Origin: an uncultured Bacteroidales bacterium | GTDB taxonomy: Bacteria > Bacteroidota > Bacteroidia > Bacteroidales > FEN-979 | Assembly (NCBI GenBank): GCA_903903985.1 | Contig: CAIVAT010000034.1 | Coordinates: 1 to 64,000 of the forward strand | Length of the DNA: 64,000 nt | Direction of reading: 5' to 3' | Shown: positions 15,501-41,810 of the stretch, in pieces | How the letters are laid out: the number at the start of each line of letters is the position of its first letter | Position numbering within the stretch: the stretch's first letter is position 1 | The notes under the pieces: generated by a model | Databases searched by the model: none | What the model was told of the DNA's origin: nothing | What the model saw: the letters and a program-made list of their open reading frames with translations, nothing else | Position numbers and translations under genes: made by a program

Positions 15501-18316
15501 AATGTGACTTCTGTTCCCCCGCATACCGGATTGGCCGAAGAAGTGATCGAAATACCGACCGGGAGCAATTGGTTGACAGCGAGTTTAACAATGTTTGAAT
15601 TCGCAGGATTACCGGTTGTACAGTTTGCATTTGAGGTTAAGATGCAGGATACAACATCATTGTTTGCAGGGTTATACGTGAAGGAATCACCACCTGTTCC
15701 AATACTGTTCCCATTCAGCATCCATTGATAAGTAGGGGCAGTGCCACCATTGATAGCTGATGCATTGAACGTTACTGCCGTTCCTTCACACACAGGGTTT
15801 GCAGATGCCGCAATTGAAACACTCACCGGAAGCAATGGTGATACAAGCATGCTGATCGTATTGGATACGGCCGGATTGCCCTGAGGGCATTCAATAGCAG
15901 AGGTTACCCTGCAGCTGACATGATCATCGTTGACCGGCATGTATTCAAAGACATCGCTGTTTGTTCCTGCATTGATTCCATTCACCATCCATTGGTATGA
16001 TGGGGTTGCGCCGCCATTATTAGTGGTTGCACTGAAAGTAACTGAAGTCCCTGCGCAAACGGAGTTTGCAGATGCAGAAATTGAAATCCCGACCTGCAAC
16101 AGTGGATTTACACTCATGATCACTGCGTTGGAAGTTGCAGGATTTAATGATGTGCAGTTGGCGTTTGATGTCAAAACACACGTTACAACATCATTGTTTG
16201 CCGGAATATAAGTAAGCGTTGCACCTCCTGTTCCTGTGTTGTTTCCATTAACAATCCATTGGTACAGGGGTGATGTTCCCTCATTGACAGGTGTTGCTGT
16301 AAACATAACAGCTGTTCCTGCACATACGTTATTGGCCGATGGAGCAATTGATACACTGACCGGGAAATACAAGCTGACATGCATGGTTACCGTATTTGAT
16401 GTCGCAGGACTTCCAGTGGCACATGTCGCATTGGCAGTCACCACGCAAGTTACCAAATCATTGTTTTCCGGTGTATAGGCATATTGATCACTGTTTGTTC
16501 CAGCTTCAACTCCGTTTACCTTCCATTGGAATACCGGTGAGGTACCGCCATGGATTACCGCCGCATTGAAGGTAACCGATGTCCCGGTACATACAAAATT
16601 CGTTGAAGGTGTAATCGTGACGCCAACAGGAAGGGAAGGGTTGACAATCATTGAAATGGCATTCGATGTTGCAGGGCTTCCATTGGAGCAAGGAGCATTC
16701 GAGGTTAAGAGGCAGGTTATAACATCATTGTTTGCAGGCATATATACAAAAGTTCCGCCGTTCTGACCGGCATTGGCACCATTCACTTTCCATTGATAGA
16801 AAGGCGCTGAACCACCATTCACCGGATCGGCAGTGAAAGTAACCAAAGTTCCTTCGCATACAGGATTGGCTGAAGAAGTGACAGAAATACTTACCGGAAA
16901 AGTAACGCTCACAGTGACAGTATGTTCCGAAGCCTTGGGTCCGTTACAACCTTCTGCAATAGCGGTAATGACTGAAGTACCACTCCAGGCCCCCGTATAA
17001 TTTACAGTTCCTGTAACCGGGTTGATGCTGTTCCCTGCAGCAACACTTGTGGCATCAAGCGTGTAATTGATTGCCGTCGAATTGATTGCAGTGGCGGGGT
17101 ATGGAACTGTGGCAGTTCCCTGACAACGGGATGAGGCCGGCCCGGCAGCAAACACCGGTGTCCCAACTTCTTCGCGGGAATTTACTTTACCATTCATATA
17201 ATAGGACGGCATCGGAAGGTCAGCCAGAATATTCTGGCCTCCGTCAAGGTATTGACAGGATGCTCCATTATCAAACCAGGTCAGGTCTGTCGAACCACCG
17301 GAAAATGTAAAGTTCAACGTAAAAAGAACGGTGTTATCCGGATAGGAAACACCCACATTTCCAGAACTATTGACAGTGACTACCCCTTGTTCGGATCCAT
17401 TGAATGTGAGGCCGGGAAAACCCGATGTATTGGTCGCTCCGGTATAGACCAGCGCAGATGAACTATAATGAAGGGTCAATGCAATTGCTCCGATATTGTT
17501 GAACCCGGCAACCTTTACAGGAACAACGATAGCGCTTCCCGGACAGGCTGATAGAACCGGAGCCGTGGTAACCGGTGCACCGGAAAACTCATTGGTTGTA
17601 AAAGTCCGTTCATTTCCATACGTTGTTTCGATGCTGTTTGTAGCAAAGGCCCTTAAGTAGTAGGTTGTACTTGCGCTCAGCCCTGTGAGGTTGCTGATAA
17701 AATCACCCGTTCCATTACCATTCATTGTTTTATTGTCGGTAATCGTGGGGTGAACGGAAGTACTCCAGCATACACCGCGCTCAGCCACCAGTGAGCCACC
17801 ATCTGAGGTAACGGACCCGCCGCTTTGTGCATTGCTTTGAGTGATGTTTGAAACAGGTGCCGTATTTAACAACGGATGGCATCCTCCCCACCTGGGCATC
17901 CCATCGCAAAAGAAAAGCTGTTGTCCATAGGCTCCCGAAGGAATTGTAGCCCAGGCAGAACCATTCCAAAAAAGCATATCTCCGGGATTTGAACCTTGCG
18001 GAGTAGAAACAGAGACCCATTTCCCACCGTTCCAGTAGTAATAACCCTGGGTTACACTATTTGGCGAAGTACCGGCAGTAGCGGTATTAAATACCAGCAG
18101 GCCGATGGCAACAGGGGTCGTGACAGGTGCAGTTAAATTGAGCGCCGTTAAGGCAACCCTTGGAGGCAGGAACCCTTTTACAGGCGATTTCACATCAAGC
18201 ATGGCCGATGGATCAGGCGGATTGCCGTCTGCATTTATTCCAACCTGCGCACGAAGATGCAGGGAAAAAAACATGAATAAAAAGGTAAACCCGAATAGTA
18301 TTATTTGCTTTTTCAT
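12512..18316 (-). CDS. Giant secreted repeat protein: cohesin-like domain, 14 Ig/PKD-like repeats, FISUMP C-terminal domain
   Basis: The start is set at MKKQIILF (18316), because this begins a proper signal peptide; the upstream 17 codons do not. About 1934 residues. The N-terminus resembles Bacteroidota tail-fibre-like proteins (VGINADGNPPDPSAMLDV, then GFLPPR). An FnIII-like 'STTYYLRAFATNS' segment and a cohesin-like beta-domain (ALTLHYSSSALVY) follow. Next come fourteen repeats of about 89 residues with the pattern SANPVCxGTxVTF...YQWKVNG...NNDVVTC...NPATSN; one (the seventh) is divergent. The last 200 residues match the FISUMP domain (IGTQCWLKENL, CPEGWHVPSS, AAVRCLKN). No T9SS sorting domain is visible. 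It is probably a surface adhesin or carbohydrate-binding scaffold. Confidence 0.85.
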   Translation of the reverse strand: MKKQIILFGFTFLFMFFSLHLRAQVGINADGNPPDPSAMLDVKSPVKGFLPPRVALTALNLTAPVTTPVAIGLLVFNTATAGTSPNSVTQGYYYWNGGKWVSVSTPQGSNPGDMLFWNGSAWATIPSGAYGQQLFFCDGMPRWGGCHPLLNTAPVSNITQSNAQSGGSVTSDGGSLVAERGVCWSTSVHPTITDNKTMNGNGTGDFISNLTGLSASTTYYLRAFATNSIETTYGNERTFTTNEFSGAPVTTAPVLSACPGSAIVVPVKVAGFNNIGAIALTLHYSSSALVYTGATNTSGFPGLTFNGSEQGVVTVNSSGNVGVSYPDNTVLFTLNFTFSGGSTDLTWFDNGASCQYLDGGQNILADLPMPSYYMNGKVNSREEVGTPVFAAGPASSRCQGTATVPYPATAINSTAINYTLDATSVAAGNSINPVTGTVNYTGAWSGTSVITAIAEGCNGPKASEHTVTVSVTFPVSISVTSSANPVCEGTLVTFTADPVNGGSAPFYQWKVNGANAGQNGGTFVYMPANNDVITCLLTSNAPCSNGSPATSNAISMIVNPSLPVGVTITPSTNFVCTGTSVTFNAAVIHGGTSPVFQWKVNGVEAGTNSDQYAYTPENNDLVTCVVTANATCATGSPATSNTVTMHVSLYFPVSVSIAPSANNVCAGTAVMFTATPVNEGTSPLYQWIVNGNNTGTGGATLTYIPANNDVVTCVLTSNANCTSLNPATSNAVIMSVNPLLQVGISISASANSVCAGTSVTFSATTNNGGATPSYQWMVNGINAGTNSDVFEYMPVNDDHVSCRVTSAIECPQGNPAVSNTISMLVSPLLPVSVSIAASANPVCEGTAVTFNASAINGGTAPTYQWMLNGNSIGTGGDSFTYNPANNDVVSCILTSNANCTTGNPANSNIVKLAVNQLLPVGISITSSANPVCGGTEVTFSAATDHGGVAPLFQWMVNGSNVGQNTAHFSYIPANNDVVTCKFTSDGPCVSGNPATSNAITMGVNLQLAVGSISSDQVLCTNMTPLALNGVSPLNGTSPEYQWQKSLDNNNFTDIPGATNLNYQPLTLTVTTYFRLLQNATGTCGGPLPTNIVTITINPENTAGVSISANPSGTVCPGTSVVFSATPVNGGLTPGYQWKVNGLEAGTNNPAFEFIPKDGDVVLCLMTSDQLCVTNNPATSNAITITTNTNANLQAGVTVYANPAGSVCEGTLVEYTATPLNGGTNPVYQWKVNGNLAGTNSAIYSYHPENGDEVVCILTSDLPCVVGNPATSNSLSMVVKEPLPVSIAISSSANPTCEGTLVTYTAIPVNEGSSPIYHWKVNGNNAGTNNPVFSLHPVNGDIITCVLNSNEDCISGNPATSNSITMEVISSYEANVSIGASTNPFCAGGLVNFTATHTGGGTNPVFQWKVNGEDVGGNSPSYSYNPLNSDVVSCVMNSNLLCVTKSPASSNSIIMVANPILPAGVSIAASANPTCAGSSVAFNATPVNGGANPVYQWKVNGANVGTNNITYSYPPVNGDVVTCHLLSSEVCATGNPACSNSITMSINPVNPVSVIISANPTGAVCQGTSVSFTATPTNGGTSPSYQWKVNGNGTGTNCPTLSYIPINGDVVTCVLTSGLSCSSGNPAISNALNMSVNANVVASVTIAASANPVQPNTSVTYTASGINGGTNPVYQWKVNGTVVGSNLSTYTYTPLNNDNVICIFTSSITNCVSGSPATSNTIVMNVSPGVPCPGLPSITYSGKTYYTVYIGTQCWLKENLNIGVRIDKTVVQSNNQVIEKYCYEDVESNCDVYGGLYKWDELMQYVTTEGAQGICPEGWHVPSSADFATLSTTLGGDLASGGKLKEAGTTHWQTSSYPGTNTSGFTGLPNGQLFFNQTTGLGTYSNIGKYGYFYTSTQYTTGTWAYYRSLIYQTLAFSENLNYKTTTAAVRCLKN
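13130..16905 (-). repeat. 14-unit coding tandem repeat (about 267 bp each)
   Basis: The DNA encoding the Ig/PKD-like repeats, about 3.8 kb. Units are of similar length and keep in-frame cysteines (VC..., VTC..., C.GNP), suggesting one disulfide per repeat. Divergence between units is substantial, so recent slippage is not evident, apart from one atypical unit at about 15020-15300. Confidence 0.85.
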
Positions 18317-35473: not shown

Positions 35474-37696
35474 ATGGAATACCGTCAAAATGAACAACTA
35501 CTCCTGGCAACAGAATTTGTTCAGTTTACGAACAAAAATATTTTTTTAACAGGCCGTGCCGGAACCGGGAAAACCACCTTTTTACATAATCTCAGGAAGA
35601 TGACACCCAAAAGGATGGTTGTGGTTGCCCCTACCGGTGTGGCAGCGATCAATGCCGGTGGGGTCACCATCCATTCCTTTTTTCAATTGGGATTTGGCCC
35701 GGCGATACCGGAATCGGCCATGCCTAATACACAGGGGAGCCCGCGGGAAAGGTTCCAGCGTAAATTCAATCGTGAAAAAATCAGGCTGATCAAATGCATC
35801 GACCTGCTGGTGATCGATGAAATCAGTATGGTGCGTGCAGATATCCTCGATGCCGTTGACGAAGTTTTACGAAAATATCGAAACCATTCCAAACCTTTTG
35901 GCGGGGTGCAACTGCTGATGATCGGCGACCTGCATCAACTCGCACCGGTGATTAAAGAGGATGAATGGAATATTCTCAAGGATTATTATCCCACGGCCTA
36001 TTTTTTTGATAGCCTGGCACTGAAAAAATCCAACCCCATCACCATCGAATTAAAAGAAATTTTCAGGCAATCGGATGCCCGCTTTATTTCTCTGCTCAAC
36101 CGGGTCAGGGAAAACAAAATTGACAACCAAACACTTTGTGAACTTAACGCACGATACATCCCAGGGTTTAACCCCGGGCTTAAGCCCGGGGTGGAGCCCG
36201 GGGTGGAGCCCGGGGGTGAGTCCTGGGATCAGGAAGGCTACATTACCTTAACCACTCACAACGCGAATGCCTTTGAGATGAACAGGGTGAAATTAGAAGC
36301 TTTGAACGGGAATCCGCGTGTTTTCTCTGCCGGAATCACCGGTGACTTCCCGAAATATAATTTCCCCACCGAGGAAGAACTCAAATTGAAACCTCATGCC
36401 CAGGTCATGTTCATCAAAAACGATTTGTCACCCGAAAAGCAATTCTACAACGGGAAAATAGGTGAAATAACACGAATCGAAGAAGAGGTTGTTTTTGTGA
36501 AATGCCCTGCCGACGCGGAAGAAATAGCTGTTGGCCGGGTGAAATGGGAAAACATCAAATATTCACTTCACGAGGAAACCAAAGAAATCAAAGAGGATGT
36601 CGTGGGCAGTTTCACTCAGATTCCCCTCAAACTGGCATGGGCGATCACCATACATAAAAGCCAGGGGCTTACTTTCGACAAGGTAATAATAGATGCAAAC
36701 GCCGCTTTTGCTTTCGGGCAGGTTTATGTGGCATTGAGCCGCTGCAGGACTTTTGACGGAATTGTGCTCAGCACTCCCATTGCCGTGTCGGGAATTAAGA
36801 CCGATTCCGCGGTATTAAGATATTCAAATGAGACCCGTCAAAACGAAACGGGTGCCGATACCTTATCTGAGTCGAAAAACATTTTTCAAAGAGATTTATT
36901 CATTGAACTATTTGATTTTAGATCAATTAAATACAGATTTACCAATTTGTTCAAGTTGATAATTGAAAATTCAAAAATCCTTGATCCTTCGTTGGTCCCT
37001 GAACTTCAGGTTATTGGAAATACATGTGATGCCGGTTTATTTCAAATTGCAGAGAAATTCAAAACTCAACTGGTAAAATTGCTGACCGCGACGATGCTTC
37101 CCGAAGAAAATCCTGAATTGCAGCAACGTACGAAACAGGCCGCATTGTATTTTATTTCCAATCTGAAAGATCCGCTTTCAGTCAATCTTGGAAAACTCAA
37201 CCTGGACACAGATAATAAAGCGCTCAGAAAACTTTTATCGGAATCATTTGAAAAATTGCAGCTGGAAATTTTCATCAAACTGTCCTGCCTTGAGAATTGT
37301 CAAAATGGCCTGGATACCATTTCCTACCTCAAAACAAGGGCGGATGCATCCTTAGACTTCCGCCCGCATGGCAGGCAAAAAGCACAGCATCAACAGCAGT
37401 ACTCAAAAACCATTATACATCCGGTACTTTTTACGGAACTCAAACGTTGGCGTGATGACCTGGCCGATGAAATGAATATACCGAAATATAGGGTCCTGCC
37501 ACAGAAATCGATGCTGGAACTGATGAACAAACTGCCCGTTACCCTTGAAGGGTTAACACGGGTAAAAGGGATCGGGAAGCTCAAAATGAAACAGTTTGGT
37601 TTGGAGATCATTTCCATCATCAGTACTTATTGTGCCGATCATGATATCATCCCTTCACAAACTGAGATCGCTGTTGCAAAAAGAGATAAAAAATAA
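35474..37696 (+). CDS. Pif1-like superfamily 1B DNA helicase with C-terminal HRDC domain
   Basis: A 740-residue protein. It has Walker A GRAGTGKTT (27-35), VVAPTGVAAINAGGVTIHSF (about 50-69), Walker B LLVIDEISM (about 113-121), LMIGDLHQLAPV (about 149-160), a LAWAITIHKSQGLTFD motif (about 387-402) and YVALSRCR (about 418-425). Residues 655-725 form an HRDC domain (VLPQKSMLEL, then LTRVKGIGKLK). Pif1-type helicases unwind G-quadruplexes and DNA forks. Residues 228-246 (GFNPGLKPGVEPGVEPGG) are a low-complexity insert encoded by a GC-rich palindrome. A second proline/histidine-rich insert lies near 627-640. Confidence 0.9.
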   Translation: MEYRQNEQLLLATEFVQFTNKNIFLTGRAGTGKTTFLHNLRKMTPKRMVVVAPTGVAAINAGGVTIHSFFQLGFGPAIPESAMPNTQGSPRERFQRKFNREKIRLIKCIDLLVIDEISMVRADILDAVDEVLRKYRNHSKPFGGVQLLMIGDLHQLAPVIKEDEWNILKDYYPTAYFFDSLALKKSNPITIELKEIFRQSDARFISLLNRVRENKIDNQTLCELNARYIPGFNPGLKPGVEPGVEPGGESWDQEGYITLTTHNANAFEMNRVKLEALNGNPRVFSAGITGDFPKYNFPTEEELKLKPHAQVMFIKNDLSPEKQFYNGKIGEITRIEEEVVFVKCPADAEEIAVGRVKWENIKYSLHEETKEIKEDVVGSFTQIPLKLAWAITIHKSQGLTFDKVIIDANAAFAFGQVYVALSRCRTFDGIVLSTPIAVSGIKTDSAVLRYSNETRQNETGADTLSESKNIFQRDLFIELFDFRSIKYRFTNLFKLIIENSKILDPSLVPELQVIGNTCDAGLFQIAEKFKTQLVKLLTATMLPEENPELQQRTKQAALYFISNLKDPLSVNLGKLNLDTDNKALRKLLSESFEKLQLEIFIKLSCLENCQNGLDTISYLKTRADASLDFRPHGRQKAQHQQQYSKTIIHPVLFTELKRWRDDLADEMNIPKYRVLPQKSMLELMNKLPVTLEGLTRVKGIGKLKMKQFGLEIISIISTYCADHDIIPSQTEIAVAKRDKK
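36160..36229. repeat. GC-rich palindromic insert inside the helicase gene
   Basis: It contains a perfect 20-bp palindrome CCCCGGGCTTAAGCCCGGGG (36172-36191), followed by two copies of GTGGAGCCCGGG. The insert keeps the reading frame and encodes a Pro/Gly-rich loop between helicase subdomains. Confidence 0.8.
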
Positions 37697-37701
37697 TTCT
37701 G

Positions 37702-39102
37702 ATGCATCATCGACTTTTAACTGATCATCTTTCGCGCATCAAACCTTTCTGCCTCTTTGGCGCCAAAGGGGTCGGGAAAACAACGGTGGTCAGGGAGTTT
37801 GCCGGTAAATTCAGCAACTGCATCCACCTCAATCTGGAGACAGGGGTTGACCGCGCCATCTTCAACTTTGACGTACCCGCCGACGAAACACTCAAAGCAA
37901 TCAGCTTTTTAAAAGGAAAGGAGGTCCGGGGAACGGGGACCCTCATCGTGCTTGATGAGCTTTACCGCTGCCAGGAGGCGATCAAATGGGTGAGGAAGCA
38001 GGCTGATGGGCGGAAGTACAGAGACACTGACAGGAGGACGGGCGGACCGTCGGACAATTTTGCAGGATCCGGAGGACCGTTTATTATTGCAAATTCCTCA
38101 ATAATGACAAAGGAAATGGATATGCTGACCGACCTTGAAAACGGGATCATGCAGCCGCTTTTTTTATATCCCTTTTCCTTTGAGGAATTTCTGATGGTGG
38201 TTGAAGATCCCGCGGCTCTTGAGGCATTCAGGGAAGTGCCGGTACCCTATTATGCCTATGAAAAGTTACTGAACTATTTTCACATCTATTCCATGATTGG
38301 CGGGATGCCGGAAATTATTGGTGAATATGCAGCCAACCGGCATCTTTCGGGGCTTAAAAATATTTATAAACGGGTTGAAGAAAGACTCATCCAGGGACTG
38401 CAGGATGTATCAGCCAGCACGAAAAGCCGGGACCTGGCAGTGGAAGTACTTCAAAACACCTATCCCTTTGCGGCCACCAGGATCAGTTTCAACCGCTTCG
38501 GGAACCTGGAAAAAGGGAGCCGGGAGATCAGCCAGGCATTCAGGATGATGGAACGTGACTTTTTCCTCCAAATGATCTACCCGGTCACCTCCACCACCTT
38601 GCCGCTTGCGCCCGATTTCTCTAAGTTCCCGAGGGTGCAACTGCTTGATACCGGGCTTGTCAATTATTTCTCAGGTATTCAGAAACCCCTGTTCCAATCA
38701 CACGACATGAATGCAATTTTCGAAGGGCAGATTGCCCGGCAGGTAGTGGGGCAGGAGTTGCTGTGTGCGGGAAACCCTGATGCCGGCGCCCGTTCACATT
38801 TAAACTTCTGGATTAGGAACAAGGCCCAATCCAGGGCGGAGGTCGATTTTGTATTTCAATATGATGATTGGCTCATTCCCGTGGTCGTCCGGTCAGGGGA
38901 GCCCGGCCGGCTCAGGTCACTGCATCAGTTTATCGATTTAGCCCCGCATGCCTATGCAGTGCGTTTGCATGCGGGTAAACTGGCTGTTCAGCAAACGCAG
39001 ACCATTCGTGGAAAAAACTTTTACCTCCTGAACCTCCCCTACTTTCTTGCCGGAAAAATCAAAGAACATCTGAAAGGGTTCTTAAGGTTTGCGAATGGAT
39101 GA
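37702..39102 (+). CDS. AAA-type ATPase with DUF4143 domain
   Basis: A 466-residue protein of the AAA_14/DUF4143 family. Walker A is GAKGVGKTT (20-28), Walker B LIVLDEL (about 82-88), a FIIANSS sensor strand lies near 130-136, and the DUF4143 region (about 250-400) ends in AEVDFVFQYDDWLIPV-like nuclease-superfamily residues (about 384-399). Such proteins are common, variable accessory ATPases in Bacteroidota. Their role is unknown, though defence or toxin links have been proposed. A Gly/Arg-rich insert (about 100-128) separates Walker B from the sensor and includes a GGGCGGAAGT repeat. It begins 5 bp after the helicase stop. Confidence 0.8.
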   Translation: MHHRLLTDHLSRIKPFCLFGAKGVGKTTVVREFAGKFSNCIHLNLETGVDRAIFNFDVPADETLKAISFLKGKEVRGTGTLIVLDELYRCQEAIKWVRKQADGRKYRDTDRRTGGPSDNFAGSGGPFIIANSSIMTKEMDMLTDLENGIMQPLFLYPFSFEEFLMVVEDPAALEAFREVPVPYYAYEKLLNYFHIYSMIGGMPEIIGEYAANRHLSGLKNIYKRVEERLIQGLQDVSASTKSRDLAVEVLQNTYPFAATRISFNRFGNLEKGSREISQAFRMMERDFFLQMIYPVTSTTLPLAPDFSKFPRVQLLDTGLVNYFSGIQKPLFQSHDMNAIFEGQIARQVVGQELLCAGNPDAGARSHLNFWIRNKAQSRAEVDFVFQYDDWLIPVVVRSGEPGRLRSLHQFIDLAPHAYAVRLHAGKLAVQQTQTIRGKNFYLLNLPYFLAGKIKEHLKGFLRFANG

Positions 39103-39120
39103 CCGTTTTCCGTATCTTTG
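39088..39120 (+). promoter_or_regulatory. Near-perfect Bacteroidota promoter of gldA
   Basis: -33 box TTTG (39088-39091), 21-bp spacer, -7 box TATCTTTG (39113-39120). It lies partly inside the 3' end of the DUF4143 gene, 25 bp before the gldA start. Confidence 0.8.
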
Positions 39121-39145
39121 CGCGGCTTTTTCAACTATATATCAT

Positions 39146-40147
39146 ATGTCGATCAGTGTTTCCAACATCACCAAAATCTATGGCACCCAGAAGGCGCTTG
39201 ATAATGTGACGCTTGAAATAAAACCCGGTGGGATCACGGGGCTGCTTGGCCCAAATGGTGCAGGGAAGAGTACCCTGATGAAGATCCTCTCCTGTTTCAT
39301 TCCTCCCACCTCGGGAGATGCTTCTGTTTGTGGTTTCGATGTGCTGGAACAGTCCATAGAAGTAAGGAAAAAGGTCGGTTACCTTCCTGAGAACAATCCG
39401 CTGTACCTTGATTTATATGTAAGGGAATTCCTGGGATTTATTGCAGGAACACATCAACTGAAAGGAAATATAGCCCATCGGGTTGCAGAGATGATCGAAA
39501 TGACCGGGTTGCAGTCGGAGCAGCACAAGAAAATCGGTGCACTTTCCAAGGGTTTCCGTCAGCGGGTCGGACTTGCCCAGGCCCTGATACACGATCCGGA
39601 AGTTCTGATTCTCGATGAGCCCACTTCAGGGCTTGATCCCAATCAATTGATCGAAATCCGGAATTTGATTACGCAGGTGGGCAAGACAAAAACGGTGATG
39701 ATGTCAACGCACATCATGCAGGAGGTAGAAGCCATTTGCACGCGGGCGGTCATCATTCACCAGGGTCGCATCATTGCTGATGATTCCACACAAAACCTGC
39801 AGCACGTTGCAACTTCAAGGGTCATCATCATGGTCGAGTTCGACGCACCGGTTCAGGGGTCATTGCTCAATAAAATACCCGGGGTTTTATCGTGTGTGAT
39901 CCCGGGAAGAAAAGATGCAGATCGAATTATTAAAAACGAATCCCGAATTCCGAATATTGGGGAACCTGTTTCCGCCATCGCTGACCATTCATCAACCATC
40001 TGGCATCTGATTTCGGCTCCAGACACAGATATCCGGGCGGAAGTATTCCAGTTCGCGGTAGAGAAAAAATACACCGTGTTATCCCTGCACCGTGAAGAAC
40101 AGAAACTGGAAGAGGTTTTCCAGGAGTTGACAAGGCCCTGGGCCTGA
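39146..40147 (+). CDS. gldA: ABC transporter ATP-binding protein, GldA-like
   Basis: A protein of about 333 residues, starting at ATG 39146 (MSISVSNITK); the upstream ATG at 39089 lies within the promoter. Walker A is GPNGAGKST (35-43), the signature LSKGFRQRVGLAQAL is near 132-146, and Walker B with the D-loop, LILDEPTSGLDP, is near 153-164. The family is ABC-2 type. YLPENNPLYLDLYVREFL after the Q-loop is typical of GldA. In Flavobacterium, GldA works with GldF and GldG in gliding. In non-gliding Bacteroidales orthologues persist. No GldFG genes are adjacent here, so a gliding role is unproven. Confidence 0.8.
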   Translation: MSISVSNITKIYGTQKALDNVTLEIKPGGITGLLGPNGAGKSTLMKILSCFIPPTSGDASVCGFDVLEQSIEVRKKVGYLPENNPLYLDLYVREFLGFIAGTHQLKGNIAHRVAEMIEMTGLQSEQHKKIGALSKGFRQRVGLAQALIHDPEVLILDEPTSGLDPNQLIEIRNLITQVGKTKTVMMSTHIMQEVEAICTRAVIIHQGRIIADDSTQNLQHVATSRVIIMVEFDAPVQGSLLNKIPGVLSCVIPGRKDADRIIKNESRIPNIGEPVSAIADHSSTIWHLISAPDTDIRAEVFQFAVEKKYTVLSLHREEQKLEEVFQELTRPWA

Positions 40148-40172: not shown

Positions 40173-40201
40173 TTTGAGATAAATAAATTTTAGTAATTTT
40201 G
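40173..40201 (+). promoter_or_regulatory. Possible metK promoter
   Basis: TTTG at 40173-40176 and TAATTTTG at 40194-40201, separated by 17 bp (slightly short of the usual 19-21). It predicts a leader of about 260 nt. Confidence 0.45.
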
Positions 40202-40336
40202 CAGCCGCAATAGTGGACAGATTTGATTGATTGCAACCACTGGAAAAAAATGCTAAACCAACATTTCCTTCCTACAATCAAAAATCAAATCGTTTATTTT
40301 AATGTTTTACCTGTGGAAGCCTTGATGCGTATTGCG

Positions 40337-40432
40337 TGACAGGGTGACAGGGTAACAGGGTGACAGGGTGACAGGGTAACAGGGTAACAGGGTAACAGGG
40401 TAACAGGGTAACAGGGTGACAGGGTAACAGGG
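40337..40432. repeat. Octanucleotide tandem array, 12 units of T(G/A)ACAGGG
   Basis: Twelve perfect head-to-tail 8-bp units: seven TAACAGGG and five TGACAGGG. They are free of other variation and followed by one degenerate partial unit. It ends 34 bp before the metK start codon. Such a homogeneous array is expected to be length-variable by slippage. Confidence 0.95.
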
Positions 40433-40441
40433 GAACAAATA

Positions 40442-40462
40442 AATCGTAAATCTAAAATCATT
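40442..40462. repeat. Heptameric array (AATCGTA family), 3 units, upstream of metK
   Basis: AATCGTA, AATCTAA, AATCATT in tandem, ending 4 bp before the metK start. This is one of the few arrays of the family at a 5' end. Confidence 0.55.
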
Positions 40463-40466
40463 TAAT

Positions 40467-41810
40467 ATGGGCTATTTATTTACATCGGAGTCCGTTTCAG
40501 AGGGACATCCGGATAAAGTTGCAGATCAGATATCAGATGCCTTGCTTGATGAATTCATGAAATGGGATCCGGAATCGAAAGTAGCATGCGAAACCTTTGT
40601 TACCACCGGGCTTGTTGTTTGCGGTGGCGAGGTAAGGACCAATGGATGGGTTGACGTACAGGAAACAGCGCGTCGTGTGATCCGGCAGATTGGTTATACC
40701 AAGGCGGAGTACCGCTTCGATTGTGATTCCTGCGGGGTGATCTCCACCATCCACGAGCAGTCGGCTGATATCAACCAGGGGGTGGTACGTGAAAAGAAAG
40801 AAGATCAGGGCGCGGGAGACCAGGGCATGATGTTTGGCTATGCCTGCAACGAGATGGAGAACATGATGCCCATGTCGATCGAACTGGCTCATATCTTCCT
40901 GCAGGAACTGGCTGAAATACGCCGGGAAGGCAAGCAGATGAAATACCTACGGCCCGACAGCAAATCGCAGGTCACCATTGAATATGATGACAAGGGAAAG
41001 CCGGTTCGCATCGATACCATCGTGGTGAGTACCCAGCATGACGATTTCATTCAACCTGCATCAAAGACTGTCAAGGCAGAAAAAGCAGCAGAAAAGGCCA
41101 TGCAGGACAAAATCAGGGATGATGTTCAGAAAATCCTGATTCCCAGGGTCAAGAAAACGTTGCCATCAAAGATTCAGAAACTCTTCCAGGGTGATTTCAA
41201 ACTACACGTGAACCCTACGGGAAAATTCGTCATCGGCGGACCTCATGGCGATACAGGCCTTACCGGACGCAAGATCATCGTGGACACTTATGGTGGACAC
41301 GGAGCCCATGGCGGCGGAGCTTTCTCCGGCAAAGATCCTTCAAAGGTCGACCGTTCGGCCGCCTATGCTGCCCGGCATATCGCCAAGAACATGGTGGCTG
41401 CCGGTGTTGCCGACCAGGTACTGATCCAGGTTGCCTATGCCATCGGGGTGGCACAGCCTGTCGGAATCTACGTAAATACCTTCGGTACAGCCAAAGTGAA
41501 AGATAAAAAAGGGTCCATGCTGCCTGACGGAGTGATTGCCGAGAAAATCAGCAAAATATTTGACCTGCGCCCTTATGCCATCGTGGAAAGGTTCGGACTG
41601 AAGAATCCTATTTACCAGCCTACTGCATCCTATGGTCATTTTGGCCGTGATCATTACTCCAGGGAGGTCGAAGTTTTTTATCCCGTTAAAGGTTCAAAAC
41701 CGATCAAAGTTAATGGTACCGGGAAAGAGGTTTACATGAAAAAAGTCGATTTCTTTGCCTGGGAAAAAGTTGATTATGCCGACAAACTCAGGAAAGAATT
41801 TGGCATTTAA
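40467..41810 (+). CDS. metK: S-adenosylmethionine synthetase
   Basis: A 447-residue MetK. It has [20 protein letters not shown] near the N-terminus (11-30), the [12 protein letters not shown] hexapeptide region (about 116-127), the [34 protein letters not shown] block (split across about 252-285) and [12 protein letters not shown]. It is somewhat longer than the E. coli enzyme (384), mainly from an Asp/Lys-rich insert around 150-250, as in other Bacteroidota. It makes SAM for UbiE and the ICMT-like enzyme here. The octamer array just upstream is the most striking regulatory oddity. Confidence 0.97.

Follow-up and report, generated by a model that had tools for sequence, protein, structure and literature searches.

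The array of twelve octanucleotide units that precedes metK, the gene for S-adenosylmethionine synthetase, is probably one copy of a dispersed, polar and G-rich intergenic repeat family, (GGGTRACA)n, and no dedicated contingency switch of metK. At this place the array stands between a SAM-II riboswitch and its gene, and it may be regarded as a largely passive copy that might damp translation through quadruplexes in the RNA. Coordinates refer to the window, i.e. the whole analysed stretch of 64,000 nucleotides from an uncultured Bacteroidales bacterium, whose genome is called G000 in the following; other genomes of the genus are numbered likewise where they have to be told apart.

The leader of metK

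The features of the region, all on the + strand, are the following.

39089..40147, +: ABC transporter ATPase, the upstream neighbour (ORF as listed; the real start is possibly later)
40194..40201, +: predicted -7 promoter element TAATTTTG (fits TAnnTTTG, with TTTG at 40173-40176)
40207..40266, +: SAM-II riboswitch aptamer (Rfam RF01726, SAM-II long loop; covariance-model match)
40250..40339, +: small ORF of 29 codons from an AUG within the aptamer, its stop being the TGA of the first array unit (peptide putative)
40337..40432, +: TRACAGGG array of 12 exact units (direct reading)
40440..40459, +: heptamer-like short repeats AATCGTA / AATCTAA preceding the metK start codon (direct reading)
40467..41810, +: metK, S-adenosylmethionine synthetase, 447 aa (ORF, Pfam)

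Direct reading confirmed the twelve T(G/A)ACAGGG units that a preliminary description had placed 34 nt 5' of metK. The units are exact and contiguous, their R positions read GGAGGAAAAAGA, and 34 nt separate the array from the ATG at 40467. The octamer TRACAGGG occurs 16 times in the window, of which 12 are in this array, compared with a mean of 3.56 and a maximum of 14 in 100 dinucleotide-preserving shuffles of the window. TRF called the array at 40339-40437 (period 8, 12.4 copies) with a score of 163, the top score of the window. A 12-nt tandem repeat at 36173-36215 lies within an ORF of 740 aa (35474-37696), and the same genome has a second, distant MetK-like ORF with 31% identity over part of the protein (C57:22000-22923, L192).

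The SAM-II riboswitch at metK had been overlooked in the preliminary description, and the array sits between its aptamer and the start codon. With 69.2 bits the match exceeded the gathering score of 44; it covered model positions 1-60 of 60 and had an E value of 6.5e-13; the long-loop form of SAM-II has been described from Bacteroidetes (PMC2864571). The predicted promoter element 5' of the aptamer follows TAnnTTTG, the -7 consensus reported for the primary Bacteroides sigma factor (PMC7366714). Because this conserved element stands just 5' of the aptamer, metK transcription probably starts there, which would place the array in the transcribed leader. The earlier reading, which had put a possible promoter on one side of the array and metK on the other, is supported, with the array downstream of the -7 element.

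A readable metK leader was available in 18 of the 19 genomes of the genus, while in the remaining one metK is a fragment at the beginning of a contig. SAM-II reached at least the gathering score in 16 of the 18 loci and the aptamer motif was visible in 17. In all 17 aptamer-bearing leaders TAnnTTTG was found 18-22 nt 5' of the motif, accompanied by the TTTG partner in 5, and the promoter-to-aptamer spacing was equal in relatives with and without an array. The distance from aptamer to ATG ranged from 106 to 254 nt, the latter being that of the window's genome. An array was present in two of the 18 leaders, with 12 units in the window's genome and 5 units in the same interval of G003, and none was seen by eye in the other 16 (about 330 nt each; that of G017 includes an N run), hence, the array is dispensable at metK. 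Since the array is situated between the likely promoter and metK, its unit number alters the leader length (12 units vs 5 in G003). Because the metK genes of the window's genome and of G003 never formed their own group in 200 bootstrap trees, in a poorly resolved region of the trees, the array at metK would have been gained twice, or gained once and then lost.

Among the metK leaders L172-L189, most have heptamer-like repeats (TTCGTAA, ATCGTAA, ATCTAAA) in the last 60 nt, directly 5' of the ATG, as judged by eye, and the G017 leader (L175) carries a GTTGGCA-like heptamer array and an N run between the upstream gene and the aptamer. The AUG of the small ORF belongs to the SAM-II aptamer consensus. 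In the G003 leader (L177) the matching small ORF has 26 codons and its stop, TAG, is immediately 5' of the first unit; similar small ORFs from the aptamer AUG exist in 16 of the 17 aptamer-bearing leaders. A conserved leader peptide from this AUG was considered and rejected, because in a by-eye reading the frame is shifted by indels between species.

The sense strand of the metK array has twelve GGG runs, and the predicted fold of the sense RNA amounts to -16.3 kcal/mol with quadruplexes and -10.5 kcal/mol without them (antisense -0.5); the four-unit form of the unit, RNA or DNA, is written (GGGUAACA)4. Because the sense RNA is predicted to form quadruplexes, reduced translation would be a likely side effect. 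The array might alternatively be a selected leader element, in which the sense-RNA quadruplexes cooperate with SAM-II in setting metK translation. The predicted quadruplexes of the twelve runs are consistent with this possibility, as are the canonical G3+N1-7 motif in 36 of the 46 arrays of G000, the array in the same leader interval of G003, and the finding that SAM-II is able to act at distance in Sinorhizobium meliloti metA, where this has been tested experimentally (Scheuer et al. 2022, PMC9373788). As in the metA case, the aptamer has an AUG nearby, and the start codon in use follows at a considerable distance (74 nt in metA); unlike there, the gene is metK in a Bacteroidales and a repeat array fills the interval (PMC9373788). 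However, unit positions 6 and 7 are the most variable ones after the R position, so that conservation of the unit does not reside in its G runs, which is a point against selection for quadruplexes. Moreover, the G3+N1-7 motif is less frequent in G018 (8 of 15 arrays) and G003 (11 of 17), arrays in tandem gaps of these three genomes have mixed orientation (21 antisense, 16 sense), and 16 of the 18 leaders do without an array. A selected element is unlikely in our view.

Dispersal of the repeat family

The script counted 46 TRACAGGG-type arrays in G000, from fetched stretches plus the window, and an 80-base repeat query gave 54 matches, overlapping ones included. When the matches of this query were grouped by hand into 43 places, 10 of these were less than 200 bp away from a contig end, far above the expected 1.5%, which indicates that arrays break the assembly; hence, the census of 46 is a lower bound. 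Contigs with arrays at their ends are C8, C13, C62, C86, C88, C94, C96, C125 and C189. Array lengths range from 3 to 21 units, with the middle near 10. The preliminary description had singled out the metK array as nearly free of point changes, unlike the others. This distinction disappears at the genome scale, because 11 of the 46 arrays, the metK array and 10 further ones, consist purely of exact units and 7 of the 46 contain an exact run of at least 12. At one locus (L206, C50 near 16953-17031) TAATAGGG and TAACAGGG units alternate; they resemble the site recognised by the homing endonuclease I-SceI, probably by chance.

Phase-variable contingency loci with simple-sequence repeats also have a tandem repeat in the leader, and the metK array had first been read in this way: slippage would shift the unit number and, hence, metK expression, thereby yielding selectable variants. 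The homogeneous 8-bp units in the leader are consistent with such a locus, and so is the finding that presence and unit number at metK vary by species. However, the family differs from contingency loci in its many copies beside unrelated genes, with the same type of array in 45 other places, and 16 other leaders have no array and yet have SAM-II and promoter. The sampled neighbours of arrays are also not surface genes, in a sample that is small and biased to gaps with orthologues. A contingency locus thus appears very unlikely, and the proposal is unsupported for an array that is one of 46 counted ones and without which riboswitch and promoter are kept.

The position of the arrays relative to genes was analyzed with gene calls from a longest-ORF script, in which some neighbours and distances are wrong. 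Two of the 46 arrays of G000 are within a called ORF. Gaps with arrays are tandem in 22, convergent in 9 and divergent in 2 cases, compared with 56, 12 and 22 among array-free gaps of at least 60 bp, i.e. divergent gaps are under-represented (2/33 vs 22/90, p 0.022; convergent p 0.10). Pfam searches with 8 neighbours of 4 gaps, chosen from gaps with orthologues and thereby favouring conserved genes, revealed enzyme, cell-wall or transport genes, among them enolase, GatB/GatE-type and ABC-transporter genes. Since arrays adjoin such genes as well, the essential neighbour, which had been regarded as unusual, is unremarkable. Each unit contains TAA or TGA, and among 12 same-strand ORFs extending into an array, 8 end at the first unit (null 1/3, p 0.019). 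An all-frame stop device was nevertheless rejected as the general role, because tandem-gap arrays occur in both orientations, as given above.

For thirteen array-bearing gaps of G000, the corresponding gap of G003 (9) or G018 (4) also contains an array; arrays of at least 3 units were counted, and both flanking genes were matched in 7 cases and one in 6, with consistent sides. A same-polarity pair was found in 11 of the 13, and the chance expectation for shared gaps is well below one in a rough estimate from 46 arrays and several thousand gaps. Judged from these comparisons, the sites of arrays seem either to be old or to arise repeatedly, with changing unit numbers and variants.

The order of A and G units was compared among the G000 arrays of at least 8 units. 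No pair shared 8 or more units in order (shuffle mean 1.2), and for this reason growth in place appears to be the likeliest origin of the arrays. Pairs sharing 5, 6 and 7 units numbered 28, 19 and 8, compared with means of 16.0, 8.2 and 3.5 and maxima of 32, 20 and 10 in 100 shuffles. Given this sharing above the shuffle means, some copying between arrays may have occurred, but copying as the main route was rejected, because sharing of at least 8 units was absent and that of 5-7 units remained within the shuffle maxima. Carriage by a mobile element was rejected as well, since no common flanking element was seen by eye around the arrays of the genus.

Our preferred explanation of the metK array would then comprise the following steps. 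The (GGGTRACA)n family of this Bacteroidales genus has probably expanded in certain species, with arrays growing in place from short seeds via slippage or unequal exchange and persisting wherever neither coding sequence nor promoters are broken. Between SAM-II and the metK start codon, a spacer of variable length could have taken up an array. The effect would be a leader that is about 100 nt longer and has predicted RNA G-quadruplexes about 30 nt 5' of the start codon. These quadruplexes may damp metK translation and alter the action of the riboswitch over distance.

Beyond this genome the TRACAGGG repeat is rare and patchy. Three consecutive exact units were found in 7 of the 19 genomes of the genus but in none of the 22 searched relatives that belong to other genera. 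Across the phylum, one of 395 sampled genomes had the unit run, namely the window's own, and in a sample of 151 genomes from the phylum to which an Anaerolinea genome belongs, it was likewise present in one, namely this centre genome itself. The reversed unit pattern was absent from the genus, relative and phylum-wide searches. A scan of species genomes gave at least 99 stretches with the repeat; among the matches listed, record titles point to 47 Chloroflexota, 38 Bacteroidota (5 Saprospiraceae), 7 Acidobacteriota, 3 Planctomycetota, 2 Pseudomonadota, 1 Bacillota and 1 Zixibacteria, where the phylum of some record names is our assumption and some Bacteroidota records probably belong to the same species as genomes of the genus. 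Where the repeat occurs, 1 to 94 matches were obtained across nine genomes. Three consecutive TRACAGGG units are also present in six viral-contig stretches (L128-L133).

Polar octamers such as Chi and KOPS are bound by chromosome or recombination proteins, and the arrays could likewise serve as binding sites of such a protein. This would be in line with an 8-bp unit that is fixed apart from one mainly free position, and with its polar, dispersed and intergenic occurrence. However, 12 of the 19 genomes of the genus lack the unit, as do 394 of the 395 genomes sampled in the phylum, and unrelated units obey the same rule of orientation described below, which renders this role most improbable.

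Polarity of facing arrays

In the analysed data, arrays that face each other follow a G-first order that is near-absolute, across unrelated units and at least three phyla (Bacteroidota, Chloroflexota, Acidobacteriota). Among 77 arrays of three genomes, an inverted partner within 150 bp was found on the 3' side in 15 and on the 5' side in none, with four loci counted from both arms. A search for the order TRACARGG...CCYTGTYA yielded 85 forward matches, which fall in 6 of 13 genomes, two of the genus, one of the Saprospiraceae and three of the Chloroflexota, and none in the other 7, which include an Acidobacteriota genome. The matches listed correspond to at least 31 distinct places, to which 4 from other loci are added, giving at least 35. 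The opposite, C-first order was absent from all 13 genomes, and each of the two order patterns detects its own order in synthetic arrays. With looser unit patterns, 13 G-first pairs and 1 opposite pair were found in loci of the genus.

The rule is not restricted to this unit. A search of the analysed loci for facing arrays of any 6-10-nt unit yielded 29 pairs, 27 of them with a G/C-skewed unit, and the G-rich arm came first in 27 of 27, several of which share a locus or genome with another pair. Pairs without TRAC..GG types were G-first in 15 of 15, and a separate search that left out 33 Bacteroidales loci and L128 gave 5 of 5 facing pairs in G-first order (p 0.06). Unrelated 7-9-nt arrays also face each other with the G-rich arm first at L031, L086, L090, L073, L062 and other loci (Acidobacteriota, Chloroflexota). 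Selection for hairpins was rejected as the cause, because ordinary hairpins in the same loci have no such bias (66 G-first, 51 C-first, 24 equal; p 0.20). Plain slippage treats both strands alike and, therefore, does not predict the G-first order. This directional rule is the strangest property of the repeat family.

The arrays also lean towards genes with one end. Leaving aside arrays in ORFs, without both neighbours or with a neighbour more than 400 bp away, the 5' end was nearer to a gene in 41 of 56 arrays (27 of 32 in G000, 7 of 12 in G003 and 7 of 12 in G018). The median distance to stop codons was 9 nt for the 5' end and 46 nt for the 3' end (p 1e-4), and the distance to start codons 37 and 68.5 nt, respectively (p 0.012). 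The excess of 5'-nearer arrays depends on same-strand 5' neighbours and falls to 16 of 27 without them. The metK array is oriented against this leaning, its 3' end being 34 nt from the gene and its 5' end about 190 nt from the ABC gene; measured to the small ORF instead, the first TGA of the array is the stop of that ORF.

It might be possible that a strand-polar DNA process builds G-rich repeats outward from gene edges irrespective of gene direction, for example a templated or slippage-prone 3'-end extension at breaks, similar to telomere addition. Such a process would act in scattered lineages of several phyla, and two-sided arrays would meet with the G-rich strand first, comparable to fused telomeres. 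It would account for the at least 35 G-first places vs none in the opposite order, for the 27 of 27 pairs over many units, and for the 5' ends being closer to both stop and start codons. However, no enzyme was found, and end joining by Ku was rejected, because Ku was detected in 0 of the 19 genomes of the genus while the Bacillus subtilis control was positive. In many facing pairs the two arms are separated by unique sequence, a remainder that is not expected from simple break filling. The excess of 5'-nearer arrays is small once same-strand 5' neighbours are removed and weak in G003 and G018, and the one opposite-order pair under looser patterns does not fit. Hence, we regard the strand-polar process as decidedly unlikely; if true, the metK copy would show quadruplex-forming RNA placed by it between SAM-II and its gene.

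Known systems and meaning of the repeat

The closest known kind to (GGGTRACA)n are the quadruplex-forming intergenic repeats GGGAATC and GGGGA(C/T)T of Xanthomonas and Nostoc (Rehm et al. 2015, PMC4692102), for which 70 and 75 convergent pairs were reported in two Xanthomonas and to which the authors could assign no role. As described there, both kinds share short G-rich units, a dispersed and intergenic occurrence that is scarce between divergent genes, convergent close pairs, and a gene context that is often common to related species. The Xanthomonas/Nostoc repeats lie nearer to their 5' neighbour, a tendency that is found here in G000, is weak in G003 and G018 and is opposite at metK. The unit is a heptamer there (GGGNATC or GGGGA(C/T)T) and an octamer with a built-in TAA or TGA here, their lengths peak at four units whereas the present arrays are longer, and quadruplexes have been measured there, in other phyla, but are predicted here, where one copy stands between SAM-II and metK (PMC4692102). 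Because unit length and four-unit preference differ, (GGGTRACA)n was not filed as a member of that type.

Another comparable case is the TAACTGA heptamer repeat of Beggiatoaceae, Cyanobacteria and Bacteroidetes (MacGregor 2015, PMC4679880). In that description, it also forms tandem arrays between genes, has stop codons within its unit, is patchy over distant phyla and has some arrays before essential genes. The unit and its length are different, it is not G-rich, and in the Guaymas Beggiatoaceae the arrays are mostly sense and a few nt from start codons (PMC4679880). A tree-of-life survey of short tandem repeats reports a high repeat density in Bacteroidota, and its passages on this subject do not mention the GGGTRACA/TRACAGGG unit (PMC12699852). 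Among the literature titles listed, none names a TRACAGGG repeat family, which is weak evidence of absence.

Collectively, our data support the notion that a clean repeat 5' of an essential gene does not by itself point to a switch if dozens of similar arrays exist in the genome. As Bacteroidetes are reported to be without classical SD sequences (PMC7366714), the natural insertion between the SAM-II aptamer and metK is useful for the question how SAM-II acts over distance in the absence of such signals. The array at metK, located behind a riboswitch, is otherwise a curiosity. It is the polarity of facing arrays that merits further attention; the G-first order represents a sharp constraint on how bacterial intergenic repeats originate.
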